Position numbers and translations under genes: made by a program. A stretch of DNA of 55,985 nt from Ignavibacteriales bacterium (GTDB lineage Bacteria; Bacteroidota; Ignavibacteria; Ignavibacteriales; Ignavibacteriaceae). How positions within the stretch are numbered: the stretch's first letter is position 1; every line of letters starts with the position of its first letter. The DNA is taken from contig PLLW01000113.1 of the NCBI GenBank assembly GCA_003141435.1, positions 12,232 to 68,216 on the forward strand. Reading direction: 5' to 3'. The notes beneath the pieces are model-generated. The model had not been told where the DNA came from and did not search any database. It saw nothing but the letters and a program-made list of their open reading frames with translations. Positions 28,395 through 32,646 of this stretch are shown piece after piece.

Positions 28395-29492
28395 TTATGA
28401 ATTCATTACCTTATTCTGATGATTGATACTTTCAATATGTACGGCATCAAAATATTTTTGAATAAATTCTTCACTTAATCCTAAAAGTTTTCCTTTAATG
28501 CCCGCTTTTTCAAGTATCTCATTCCACCGGGTTGGCTGAAGTATTGTAATATTATTATTTCTTTTATACTCACCTATCATATCTGCAATTTTCATTCTTT
28601 GTGAAAGAAGCTGCATAAGTTCATCATCAATCTGGTTTATCTGCTCTCTTAGTTTTTCAAGGGCAAGATTAAAAGAGTTTTCTGATGTGCTTTCATGTCT
28701 CCACTTAATACTATCGATCAGTTTTTTCAGCTGTTGCGGGGTAATCTGTTGTTTTGCATCGCTTAATGCTTTATCCGGATCGATATGACTTTCGATCATC
28801 AGACCGTCAAAATCCAGATCAATTGCTTTTTGAGAAAGTTCCTGGAGGATATCCCTTCTTCCGCAAATATGTGAAGGATCGCAGATCATCATAAGATGGG
28901 GATTCCTTCTTTTCATTTCGATAGCCATATGCCACATAGGTGCATTGCGATATTCAGTATTACCGAAGGTGCTGAATCCACGATGGATAAGGCCAATATT
29001 TTTAACACCGGCTTTAACAATCCTCTCAACCGCACCCATCCACAATTCTATATCAGGGTTCAGCGGATTTTTAATTAAGACAGGAACATCTGTTCCCTTT
29101 AAAGCATTCGCTATATCCTGAACACTCAGAGGGTTAACGGCTGAACGGGCACCGATCCATAAAACATCCACTTCAAATTGGATAGCATCCTCCACCTGCT
29201 TAGCTGAAGCCACTTCAACAGTAACAGGCAGCCCGGAAATTTTACGTGCTTTCTGAAGCCATGGAAGCCCTCTGATACCGACTCCTTCAAAGGTCCCGGG
29301 GCGGGTGCGTGGTTTCCATATTCCAGCGCGGAATATATCAACCACACCTGTTTCCGCAAGCTGTATTGCAGTCTGAATGACCTGTTCTTCAGATTCGGCA
29401 CTACATGGTCCGGAAATAATTAAGGGACGTTTTGCCCATTTATCTTTTATAAACTGCATTGTAAACTTTTTTGTTTCCATTACTCGATTCAT
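28395..29492 (-). CDS. DAHP synthase (type I-beta) fused to C-terminal chorismate mutase
   Basis: 365 residues. About residues 15-255 are a type I-beta DAHP synthase (LIISGPCSAESEEQVIQTA, IFRAGIWKPRTRPGTFEGVG, DPSHICGRRDIL, GLMIESHIDP), which makes the first shikimate-pathway intermediate from PEP and erythrose-4-phosphate. About residues 275-360 are an AroQ chorismate mutase (LREQINQIDDELMQLLSQRM, IGEYKR). This domain order is known from Porphyromonas and Prevotella, where the mutase domain also mediates prephenate feedback. It is the last gene of the operon, 3 bp after tyrA. The start may instead be the ATG at 29480. Confidence 0.93.
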   Translation of the reverse strand: MNRVMETKKFTMQFIKDKWAKRPLIISGPCSAESEEQVIQTAIQLAETGVVDIFRAGIWKPRTRPGTFEGVGIRGLPWLQKARKISGLPVTVEVASAKQVEDAIQFEVDVLWIGARSAVNPLSVQDIANALKGTDVPVLIKNPLNPDIELWMGAVERIVKAGVKNIGLIHRGFSTFGNTEYRNAPMWHMAIEMKRRNPHLMMICDPSHICGRRDILQELSQKAIDLDFDGLMIESHIDPDKALSDAKQQITPQQLKKLIDSIKWRHESTSENSFNLALEKLREQINQIDDELMQLLSQRMKIADMIGEYKRNNNITILQPTRWNEILEKAGIKGKLLGLSEEFIQKYFDAVHIESINHQNKVMNS

Positions 29493-29495
29493 TCC

Positions 29496-30335
29496 TTATT
29501 TTAATATTTTCCTGATTTCATTTGCCTGCTGGATTAGCTTATATAAAGTATCAAACTCTTCCATCTCCAATAATTTTTTTATTTGTTTTAATTGAAATAT
29601 TTGTTCATTAAGAACATCCAGGACATTACTCCTGTTCTGTTTGAAAATCGGAATCCAGGTATCGGGACTACTTTTAGCCAATCTCACAGTACTTTCGAAA
29701 CCACCGCCTGCAAGCTCAAATATTGAATCTTCTTCTTTTTCTTTTTCGAGAACCGAAAGTGCAAGAGCAAAAGAAGTGATATGCGAAATATGGCTGACAT
29801 ATGCAGCGTGAATATCGTGACTTACTGCATCCATATAAAATCTATTCATTCCTAAAGAATCATACATTTTCTCTACAATTGAAAGAGCATCTACATCACT
29901 TTCTTCACGGTTGCATATGACTGTAACTTTTCCTTTGAAGCCATCTTTAACAGCGGCAAGCGGTCCGCTATATTCAGTTCCCCATATAGGATGTGTTGCG
30001 ACAAATCTTTTCCTTTTGGAATGGGAGGATGCAATTTTAACAATCTGTTCTTTTGTAGAACCGACATCAATTACAACCTGATTATCTATCAAATCAAGAA
30101 CCTCCGGGAGAACTTTAAGAGCAACATCCACAGGAACGGCAATAATTATTAAATCAGAATTTCTTACAGCATTCTGTAAATTGTCAATCTTATCGACAAT
30201 ATTTAATTGTAGTGCAAGCTGAGCGTTAGCAATATTAGAATCAACGCCAATAACTTTAGTACAAAAGGAATTGCCTTTAAGCGTGAGCGCAAGGGAGCCG
30301 CCGATTAAACCTGTACCTATAACTGAAACAATCAT
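29496..30335 (-). CDS. tyrA: Prephenate dehydrogenase
   Basis: 279 residues. It begins MIVSVIGTGLIGGSLALTL, an NAD-binding GxGxxG fold. DVGSTKEQIVK, FVATHPIWGTEYSGPLAAV (catalytic His) and SHISHITSFALALSVL follow in TyrA order. It oxidatively decarboxylates prephenate to 4-hydroxyphenylpyruvate. There is no fused ACT or mutase domain. It overlaps the aminotransferase gene by 4 bp and is followed by the DAHP synthase-mutase fusion. Confidence 0.93.
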   Translation of the reverse strand: MIVSVIGTGLIGGSLALTLKGNSFCTKVIGVDSNIANAQLALQLNIVDKIDNLQNAVRNSDLIIIAVPVDVALKVLPEVLDLIDNQVVIDVGSTKEQIVKIASSHSKRKRFVATHPIWGTEYSGPLAAVKDGFKGKVTVICNREESDVDALSIVEKMYDSLGMNRFYMDAVSHDIHAAYVSHISHITSFALALSVLEKEKEEDSIFELAGGGFESTVRLAKSSPDTWIPIFKQNRSNVLDVLNEQIFQLKQIKKLLEMEEFDTLYKLIQQANEIRKILK

Positions 30336-31489
30336 TTCATCTCCTCCACTCTTTTAATTGCTTCATCCAATTTTTCGATTGTAGCACAAAGGCTAACTCT
30401 AATATAACGGTTGCCCGCACTGCCGAATATTGCACCCGGAGTTACAAAAACTCCAGCTTTATCCAGAATTTTATCTATGAAGGTATAACAATCTTTTTCT
30501 GAGTCATCGATTTTTGCCCAAATAAACATGCCCGCCTGGGATTCGCTAAAGACAGTCTTCAGATTTTTTAATAAAGTAAATGCTTTGTTTCTCCTGCTAC
30601 GGTATACATTATTCACATTTTCATACCATTCTAACGGGAGGGATAAAGCTTTTGCCGCTGCAAGCTGCAAGGGAAGGAACATGCCGCTATCCATATTGCT
30701 TTTAAAGCGAAGGACTTCATTGATAATCTGATCATTTCCTGCGAGCAAACCAACACGCCAGCCAGCCATGTTATGGGATTTGCTTAAAGAATTCAATTCG
30801 ACTGCTGTATCTTTTGCATTTTTTACAGATAAAAGACTTAATGGCTTATCATTGAGAATGAAAGAATAGGGATTATCATGGCAGATTAGGATATTATGTT
30901 TATTCCCAAAAGCAATTACCCGTTCAAACAGTTCTTTTGAGGGAAGCTGTCCAGTTGGCATATGCGGATAATTCAGCCACATCATTTTAACGCTGCTCAG
31001 ATCAAGGGACTCAAGGAAATTAAAATCAGGCATCCAGTTATTTTCTTCTTTCAATTCGTAATCTACACAATCAGCGCCAGTAAGATAAACTGCAGAGCGG
31101 TAAGCAGGATAGCCGGGATTAGGCACCAGGACTTTATCTCCGGGGTTAAGGAATGTCATGCATATATGAACAATTCCCTCTTTAGAACCGATTAAAGGAA
31201 GAATTTCAGATTCAGGGTCCAGATCAACATTGTACCATTGTTTATACCAACGGCACATTGCCTTACGCAAAACAACAGAGCCTCTGTAGCTTTGATACGA
31301 GTGCTGATTAGGCTTTACAGATTCCTCGTTTAACGTTTTAATAACATCGGGATGAGGAGGTTGGTCGGGGCTTCCGATACCAAGGTTAATAATCTGCCTG
31401 CCTTTTTTATTCAGATCATCAATCTCCTTAAGTTTCCGCGAAAAATAATATTCGCTGATATTATTTAATCTATCTGCTGTTTTTATCAT
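30332..31489 (-). CDS. Class I aminotransferase, probably aromatic or aspartate type
   Basis: 385 residues of PLP fold type I. LGIGSPDQPPHPDVI lies near the start, SYRGSVVLRKAMCRWY and NPGYPAYRSAV follow, the PLP lysine is in SLSKSHNMAGWRVG, and the carboxylate-binding Arg is in YIRVSLCA. The family resembles LL-diaminopimelate or aspartate aminotransferases. Overlaps of 4 bp with both pheA and tyrA imply that it transaminates phenylpyruvate and 4-hydroxyphenylpyruvate, the last step to Phe and Tyr (inference from context). Confidence 0.88.
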   Translation of the reverse strand: MIKTADRLNNISEYYFSRKLKEIDDLNKKGRQIINLGIGSPDQPPHPDVIKTLNEESVKPNQHSYQSYRGSVVLRKAMCRWYKQWYNVDLDPESEILPLIGSKEGIVHICMTFLNPGDKVLVPNPGYPAYRSAVYLTGADCVDYELKEENNWMPDFNFLESLDLSSVKMMWLNYPHMPTGQLPSKELFERVIAFGNKHNILICHDNPYSFILNDKPLSLLSVKNAKDTAVELNSLSKSHNMAGWRVGLLAGNDQIINEVLRFKSNMDSGMFLPLQLAAAKALSLPLEWYENVNNVYRSRRNKAFTLLKNLKTVFSESQAGMFIWAKIDDSEKDCYTFIDKILDKAGVFVTPGAIFGSAGNRYIRVSLCATIEKLDEAIKRVEEMK

Positions 31490-32319
31490 CTTATAGTAAT
31501 TCCTTTTTTATATATACCATACACTTTTAATTTTTCGGTAACAGAACGTATTGCATCAATAACAGAATTAAACCTATCCAATGAATCGAATTCCATATCG
31601 ACATAGAAAGAATATTTCCAATCGGTGTCAGGGATAGGGAACGACTGGAGCTTTGAAAGGTTAACACCGCCGTCTGCTATTATAGTTAAAACACGGGCAA
31701 GACTTCCTTTAGAATGATCTGTCTGAAAATAGAGGGATGATTTATTCGGATGCTCCATGTACCCTATTTTATCTTCCCTTTGAAGAATAAGAAAGCGGGT
31801 ATAATTATTTTTCAGAGTATGGATATTGGGAACTATAATATTAAGACCATACATTTTTGCAGCAAGCCTACCGGCAATAGCTGCCGCATGTTTGTTATGG
31901 TGCTGATGGATGAGCTGAGCACTAAGGGCAGTATCGTCAGACTCGACAAGTTTCCAATCGAATTTTTCGAGATAGTCCATACATTGGAGCAGAGCCATTG
32001 GATGGGAATGCACTTCCTTAATTTCATTAAACTCCACATCAGGATTAACCATCAGGTGCTGTCTGATCTGGAGATAAATTTCGCCGATAACATGCAGATT
32101 GCTTTTCTGAAGAAGGTTGTAATTAGGGAGAATGCTTCCTGCAGTTGAATTTTCGATTGCAATTACTCCCCCATCTGAAATCTTTTTATCAGAAGCCTGC
32201 CTGACAGTTTCCCTAAAAGTTGTACATGGGATAACTTTAACATTGCCTCCAAAAAAATGGTTTGCAGCTTCCTGATGGAAACTTCCCTCAAATCCTTGTA
32301 TTGCTATTCTTTTTTCCAT
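31486..32319 (-). CDS. pheA: Prephenate dehydratase with ACT domain
   Basis: 277 residues from the ATG at 32319. The family start MEKRIAIQGFEGSFHQEAA is followed by the TRF motif (NNYTRFLIL) and a C-terminal ACT domain (GSLARVLTIIADGGVNLSKL) for Phe feedback. It lacks a fused chorismate mutase. The alternative ATG at 32340 would lie inside the attenuator stem, so 32319 is chosen. It is the first structural gene of the operon and begins a few bases past the attenuator T-tract. Confidence 0.93.
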   Translation of the reverse strand: MEKRIAIQGFEGSFHQEAANHFFGGNVKVIPCTTFRETVRQASDKKISDGGVIAIENSTAGSILPNYNLLQKSNLHVIGEIYLQIRQHLMVNPDVEFNEIKEVHSHPMALLQCMDYLEKFDWKLVESDDTALSAQLIHQHHNKHAAAIAGRLAAKMYGLNIIVPNIHTLKNNYTRFLILQREDKIGYMEHPNKSSLYFQTDHSKGSLARVLTIIADGGVNLSKLQSFPIPDTDWKYSFYVDMEFDSLDRFNSVIDAIRSVTEKLKVYGIYKKGITIR

Positions 32320-32324
32320 AATAA

Positions 32325-32350
32325 TAAAAAACCCGATCATTTGACCGGGT
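32325..32350 (-). terminator. Attenuator terminator before pheA
   Basis: On the minus strand ACCCGGTCA pairs with TGATCGGGT around a 2-nt AA loop (one G-T wobble), followed by TTTTTTATTATT that runs to the pheA ATG at 32319. A terminator placed immediately before the first structural gene, and after a Phe/Tyr leader peptide, is an attenuator. Its 5' arm overlaps the 3' arm of the antiterminator. Confidence 0.88.
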
Positions 32351-32403
32351 GACTTTGTAAATTTTTTGTTTTCAGGCTCTTAATTTATGCAAAAGTCTCC
32401 CGG
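32345..32403 (-). promoter_or_regulatory. Antiterminator hairpin of the Phe/Tyr attenuator
   Basis: On the minus strand CCGGGAGACTTT (32403-32392) pairs with AAAGTCACCCGG (32356-32345), 11 of 12 positions with a single A-A mismatch. The upstream arm lies in the last codons of the leader peptide, beyond the Phe/Tyr run. The downstream arm contains most of the 5' arm of the terminator. The two structures are therefore mutually exclusive. A ribosome stalled on Phe/Tyr codons leaves the antiterminator free to form. One that reaches the stop codon covers the upstream arm. Confidence 0.8.
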
Positions 32404-32466
32404 ATTATTTCCGTAGAAATAAAAATAAAAGTAATAAAACAACAGGGACACTTTAACTTTTTTCAT
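32380..32466 (-). CDS. Phe/Tyr leader peptide of the aromatic operon
   Basis: A 28-codon reading frame that starts with ATG at 32466 and stops with TAA at 32380. It encodes MKKVKVSLL followed by FYYFYFYFY, nine consecutive aromatic codons (4 Phe, 5 Tyr), then GNNPGDFCIN. It lies upstream of the attenuator terminator, directly before genes for Phe and Tyr synthesis. Chance occurrence of such a run here is very unlikely. No strong Shine-Dalgarno is seen, which is common in this group. The peptide has no expected function beyond sensing charged tRNA-Phe and tRNA-Tyr supply. Confidence 0.85.
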   Translation of the reverse strand: MKKVKVSLLFYYFYFYFYGNNPGDFCIN

Positions 32467-32646
32467 TCGGTATTAAATTAAAAATAATTTTTTTAAGATA
32501 CAATTATAAAAGCATATAAAATGGTCTTTTTTCATCGGATTTTAATAGATTGATATGATCCAAGTCAATATTCTTTTAATATTATTAGTTTAGTTTTGCT
32601 CATTAAATAACGGAAAAATCGTTTTGTAGTTAATTCTCAGGTATAT

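Follow-up and report, generated by a model that had tools for sequence, protein, structure and literature searches.

Among the closest described counterparts of the element reported here is the enteric pheL/pheA attenuator (Rfam RF01859, Phe_leader), in which an aromatic-rich leader peptide is combined with alternative 2:3 and 3:4 helices and a terminator before pheA. In the Bacteroidota, the main text of a study of Flavobacterium psychrophilum describes, ahead of pheA and hisG, a structured 5' element that is conserved in other Flavobacteriaceae genera and has no Rfam hit, and notes strong indications that leader-peptide attenuation operates at amino-acid operons (PMC9723704); neither a leader sequence nor pairing arms nor a comparison across the phylum is given there for the pheA element. 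The Bacteroid-trp motif (Rfam RF01692), a candidate Bacteroidetes cis-regulatory RNA named after trp genes (PMC2864571), concerns a different operon from the pheA attenuator. An earlier note on the DNA analysed here had called such attenuation little described in the phylum. This is only partly right: it is hardly described, but both the F. psychrophilum element (PMC9723704, main text) and the Bacteroid-trp motif (PMC2864571) had already been reported.

Little is known of how the Bacteroidota, which are important in soil, water and gut, regulate amino-acid synthesis; their promoters and translation starts are unlike those of E. coli, whose tools therefore cannot be carried over. Vitreschak in 2004 and Lopatovskaya in 2010 are said to have treated attenuators in Bacteroidetes/Chlorobi, among other groups; in the literature searched, which included few subscription papers, neither a phylum-wide account nor Tyr-only leaders were found. 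The mechanism itself is textbook knowledge, and the comparison of genomes below indicates that it is very probably widespread in the Bacteroidota.

The pheA leader and its operon

The window analysed, a stretch of 55,985 nucleotides from an Ignavibacteriales genome, carries on its minus strand a leader situated between a predicted promoter, only approximate here and with recognisable boxes in relatives, and a Phe/Tyr biosynthetic operon. The operon consists of pheA, encoding prephenate dehydratase (31486..32319; PDT domain, with a weak ACT match below cut-off), a class I/II aminotransferase gene (30332..31489), tyrA, encoding prephenate dehydrogenase (29496..30335), and a gene for DAHP synthase fused to chorismate mutase (28395..29492), all on the minus strand. 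These are the four genes that had been named when the mixed Phe/Tyr run was said to match an operon making both amino acids, and the fit stands. A longer pheA start proposed by the ORF-finder, at 32340, was rejected; it lies inside the terminator, and both relatives and alignment favour 32319. The gene on the other side of the leader is divergent.

The leader ORF, MKKVKVSLLFYYFYFYFYGNNPGDFCIN, occupies 32380..32466 (minus strand), with its start codon ATG at 32466-32464 and its stop codon TAA at 32382-32380, and is kept by relatives. Its 28 codons include nine consecutive Phe/Tyr codons, encoding FYYFYFYFY. Arm 1, the protector (AAAGTGTCCC, 32445..32454), is able to pair with arm 2 (CCGGGAGACTTT, 32392..32403), the 5' arm of the antiterminator, which lies inside the leader ORF at codons 22-25, 9 nt beyond the run's final Tyr codon and 9 nt before the stop codon. 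Arm 3, the antiterminator 3' arm (AAAGTCACCCGG, 32345..32356), pairs with arm 2 at 11 of 12 positions, the exception being a single A.A mismatch, and overlaps the 5' arm of a terminator with which it has ACCCGG in common. The intrinsic terminator hairpin, ACCCGGTC-AAAT-GATCGGGT (32331..32350), has an 8-bp stem and is followed in the sequence by a U6 tract (32326..32331), all on the minus strand; the hairpin ends 12 nt, and the U6 tract 6 nt, before the pheA ATG at 32319. On re-reading, the coordinates of the 28-codon leader and its nine-codon run proved correct to the base, and the 11/12 pairing, the overlap of the arms and the placing of the terminator directly before pheA were all confirmed in the sequence. 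The description of the attenuator as complete holds for the window, where arm 1 is present, but the protector is weak in the genus-mate.

Compared with enteric pheL, the leaders of this type differ in mixing Phe with Tyr, and sometimes Trp, ahead of an operon that makes both amino acids. They differ also in that many begin almost at the predicted transcription start, and in the gene order of the operon, which here is pheA-aminotransferase-tyrA-aroF/CM. The RF01859 model scored 17.2 bits in the window, under its gathering cut-off of 55; in several relatives it matched the corresponding element, likewise below threshold, with a maximum of 41.5 bits (Chitinophaga) among the relatives tried.

Chance expectation and folding energetics

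When the 340-nt upstream region was dinucleotide-shuffled 20,000 times, no Phe/Tyr run within a short ATG-started ORF exceeded seven codons, a length reached in 3 shuffles; runs of eight or nine were never obtained, and nine Phe/Tyr in ten codons arose in one shuffle. Eight successive TWY codons occur in the 3.08-Mb genome as six matches at five places, two of the matches overlapping at the pheA leader, which is the only site recognised as a leader. Of the other runs, those on C8 and C43 share an identical sequence suggestive of a repeat, and a third further run lies on C9; the run on C68 was inspected and was rejected as a leader, having no terminator behind it and lying within a longer coding-like stretch.

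The pairing of arm 2 with arm 3 gave a z of -4.5 against shuffled arm 2. The arm 1:arm 2 duplex was variable, with a z of -4.0 here, -1.2 in the genus-mate and a median of -1.2 over 77 loci. Folding of the leader region, proposed as a check of the attenuator, was carried out and was uninformative by itself: folded as a whole, the leader gave a z of only -1.6, as expected of alternative structures.

With a ribosome placed at the stop codon, the terminator alone forms in the free RNA (-12.5 kcal/mol). With a ribosome stalled in the aromatic run and arm 4 unmade, helix 2:3 reaches -14 to -17 kcal/mol at most stall positions and -11.4 kcal/mol at the last Tyr codon, the terminator hairpin alone being worth -11.9 kcal/mol. 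Helix 2:3 is the stabler of the two in 53 of 79 loci. When arm 2 is free and arm 4 has been made, the fold of lowest energy consists of the terminator together with the outer part of helix 2:3 and other local pairing, and beats full antitermination (2:3 alone) by 3.6 kcal/mol. Since the equilibrium fold retains the terminator, the switch must act kinetically, by timing. Dependence on timing is usual for attenuators.

Occurrence in relatives

The earlier note had proposed comparing the leader in related genomes, and this comparison bore it out, with Phe/Tyr codons conserved and stems covarying. The leader and terminator are found in a genus-mate (G001), in five family members (L003-L006 and L031) and in one order-mate (L007). 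Across 80 pheA loci from named genomes, 78 of which had enough upstream sequence to be read, an aromatic leader followed by a terminator was present in at least 71 of the 78 Bacteroidota loci, although related loci share ancestry and such counts are not independent events. The loci span Chitinophagaceae, Hymenobacteraceae, Rikenellaceae and Flavobacteriaceae, and one lies in a metagenome-assembled genome labelled Verrucomicrobiota, whose PheA groups with Rikenellaceae. Residue counts over 79 leaders came to 452 for Phe, 289 for Tyr and 24 for Trp. When a covariance model of the element was run against 394 genomes of the phylum, 131 gave a match at E <= 0.01, the weaker matches including other amino-acid leaders and chance matches. 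One such weak match (G027, C91) and three more weak hits (L179, L180 and L182) were judged by inspection not to be leaders.

Selection at the level of the RNA

Mutually exclusive antiterminator and intrinsic terminator helices are supported both by covariation of the two stems and by an arm-swap test. In an alignment of 50 sequences, covariation was 0.157 for the antiterminator against 0.115 when shuffled, and 0.359 for the terminator against 0.181, with none of 500 shuffles as high in either case; double changes were seen in 12 of the 15 antiterminator pairs. Both helices beat every shuffle in covariation and cells paired, and both dropped when slid by one column. Native arm 2/arm 3 duplexes averaged -17.6 kcal/mol, as against -13.7 kcal/mol when arms were swapped between loci; swapping thus costs 4 kcal/mol on average, and none of 10,000 permutations was as good. 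At one locus (L095), arms 2, 3 and 4 have changed together (CCGAG/CTCGG/CCGAG).

The distance from the last aromatic codon to the antiterminator core was 7-10 nt in 57 of 80 loci, as the established model of attenuation predicts where arm 2 has to stay clear of a stalled ribosome. Outside the aromatic run, the sequence of the leader peptide is not conserved. The CGGG core of arm 2 was found in all three frames of the leader ORF (15, 26 and 8 cases), as in ..RPGMLLL.. (CCG GGA) and ..SSRVVF.. (AGC CGG GTT), and it is therefore the RNA, not the peptide, that has been kept.

Promoters and the leader 5' UTR

In F. psychrophilum, a TAnnTTTG-type box is reported at -12 to -5 relative to the transcription start, and only 5.5% of mRNAs are leaderless, according to the main text of that study (PMC9723704). 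A perfect TAnnTTTG was the best match within the 60 nt before the leader in 51 of 78 loci, against 4.9% of shuffles, and 42 of 55 perfect boxes begin 12-17 nt before the leader ATG. A TTG stands 21-26 nt further up from the box in 35 of 52 loci. Boxes of the form TTG-N-TAnnTTTG were observed ahead of leader start codons in the upstream regions L044-L123. The typical leader would thus have a 5' UTR of 0-5 nt, many leaders apparently starting 0-5 nt from the predicted transcription start.

In the window, a possible -7 box (TATTTTTA, 32479..32486, minus strand) has five of the six fixed positions of TAnnTTTG and predicts a 5' UTR of about 8 nt; an alternative box (TATAATTG, 32501-32508, minus strand) predicts about 30 nt. 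The promoter box of this genome is weak and imperfect. Both candidates lie upstream of the leader ATG and so predict transcription starting ahead of the leader, whereas a start inside it was what the earlier note had named as telling against attenuation.

Proposed mechanism and alternative explanations

We consider it highly probable that the pheA leader is a classical ribosome-mediated transcription attenuator, because conserved aromatic leaders, covarying helices, conserved spacing, promoters lying upstream of the leader in the majority of relatives, and leader codons that suit the function of the genes behind them at several operons all agree with such a reading. The stall and read-through scheme put forward in the earlier note draws its support from this same conservation. 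The sequence, its conservation, covariation and spacing and its gene context thus point to ribosome stalling, termination and a response to Phe and Tyr as the likely behaviour of the element. Polymerase would start upstream of the leader, and a ribosome would at once translate the 28-codon ORF. With ample Phe-tRNA and Tyr-tRNA, translation would proceed to the stop codon, where the ribosome would cover most of arm 2, so that arms 3 and 4 could form the terminator and transcription would end before pheA. Under a shortage of Phe or Tyr, the ribosome would stall in the nine-codon run with its front edge short of arm 2, and the free arm 2 would capture arm 3 once made, allowing read-through into pheA-aminotransferase-tyrA-aroF/chorismate mutase.

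The hairpin might instead act mainly on translation, hiding the pheA start region according to the position of the leader ribosome while transcription continues. The hairpin is indeed close to the pheA start in the window, and Shine-Dalgarno sites are rarely used by Bacteroidota, as stated in the main text of the F. psychrophilum study (PMC9723704). We nevertheless regard control of translation as very unlikely, as a T run lies behind the hairpin in nearly all relatives, a covarying GC stem followed by a U-run has the form of an intrinsic terminator, and in several relatives the hairpin stands 100-190 nt from the start of the PheA match, a distance too great for hiding the start region, provided that the match begins at the start codon.

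Two further explanations were weighed. A constitutive terminator, or the remnant of an upstream unit, could lie beside a small aromatic-rich membrane peptide with a function of its own, a notion to which the hydrophobic peptide and the capacity of T-rich DNA to yield such short ORFs lend something. However, the upstream gene is divergent and thus supplies no incoming transcript in need of termination; changes in arm 2 covary with those in the terminator; and the non-aromatic part of the peptide is unconserved, its C-terminal frame shifting relative to the conserved CGGG core, which together leave this account highly improbable. T-boxes regulate aromatic genes in other phyla, and a T-box or riboswitch, binding tRNA or a metabolite and happening to include a short ORF, is the other candidate. 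Such a leader is barely credible here, since no Rfam family reached threshold in the window except a tRNA elsewhere, and with thresholds relaxed, Phe_leader matched best among the amino-acid leaders but stayed below its cut-off.

Origin of the operon

Most order-mates have a deeply separate PheA, and among those with the other, unrelated pheA an aromatic leader was found in none of 31 loci. The PheA of the window and of the leader-bearing family members falls within the Bacteroidia PheA clade, grouped with Chitinophagaceae, and a 17-row fork in the PheA tree has support of 98/97. The simplest reading, which the tree suggests, is that the operon was transferred from a Bacteroidia donor together with its attenuator, the direction of transfer being deduced. 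It would offer a natural example of a regulated operon that has crossed between classes along with its RNA switch.

Similar leaders at other genes

The same genome carries a clear His leader, MNFNTLYHHHHFNSHIMCRR, ahead of hisG, with a terminator (G000:C48; L130:1190-1320, L142); the final part of the leader ORF pairs with the 5' arm of this terminator at -14.3 kcal/mol. Ahead of trpE stand MNQIIKNNLRSISQYWWWCAISLHTGERTD, which has three Trp codons in succession, and a strong terminator (G000:C102; L131:1253-1420, L143); the best antiterminator pairing found there was weak (-4.1 kcal/mol) and not convincing, and the Bacteroid-trp motif gave no match at this trpE locus. A 51-codon Ile/Leu-rich ORF and a weak terminator precede ilvD (L141 reverse complement, about nt 910-1170), which is suggestive only of a possible branched-chain leader. 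The lysC/thrA homologues of this genome showed no clear leader.

Taken across genomes, leader codons track gene function: Phe/Tyr(/Trp) at pheA or aroF, His at hisG, Trp at trpE, Thr/Ile at thrA and Tyr alone at phenylalanine hydroxylase. On the broader proposition, that Bacteroidota generally use near-leaderless attenuators, with promoters 12-17 nt before the leader, as their default for amino-acid synthesis, that the elements move between classes with operons and that codons track product, we find the case evenly balanced. The Phe/Tyr attenuator, for which support is comparatively good, and its His, Trp, Thr/Ile and Tyr-only versions provide a set of testable switches.

Two other genomes of the phylum (G010 and G035; L174, L175) have a TSFYFYWFYF leader and a terminator immediately ahead of a stand-alone gene for DAHP synthase-chorismate mutase (aroF), the same gene that ends the operon in the window. 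Another genome (G049) has a His leader before hisG. In G233 (C2; L178), a Thr/Ile leader, MIFNTSIITTIIITTGINQRG, and a terminator precede thrA, encoding aspartokinase-homoserine dehydrogenase, and the composition of this leader is very like that of the enteric thr leader. In a single Bacteroidota family, about a dozen genomes have Tyr-only leaders such as MKTMNNYYYYYYYRMMSFGMGVVCS and MNFSAQNYYYYYYYREASCFGAGTGMRSL, with terminators, before the gene for biopterin-dependent phenylalanine hydroxylase (L184-L190, L192, L193, L195; L183:302-440), the runs of these leaders including NNYYYYYYY and QNYYYYYYY. The phenylalanine hydroxylase leader looks like a Tyr-specific attenuator, and the set offers a natural control of specificity, a Tyr-making gene having Tyr codons and the operon that makes both amino acids having both.
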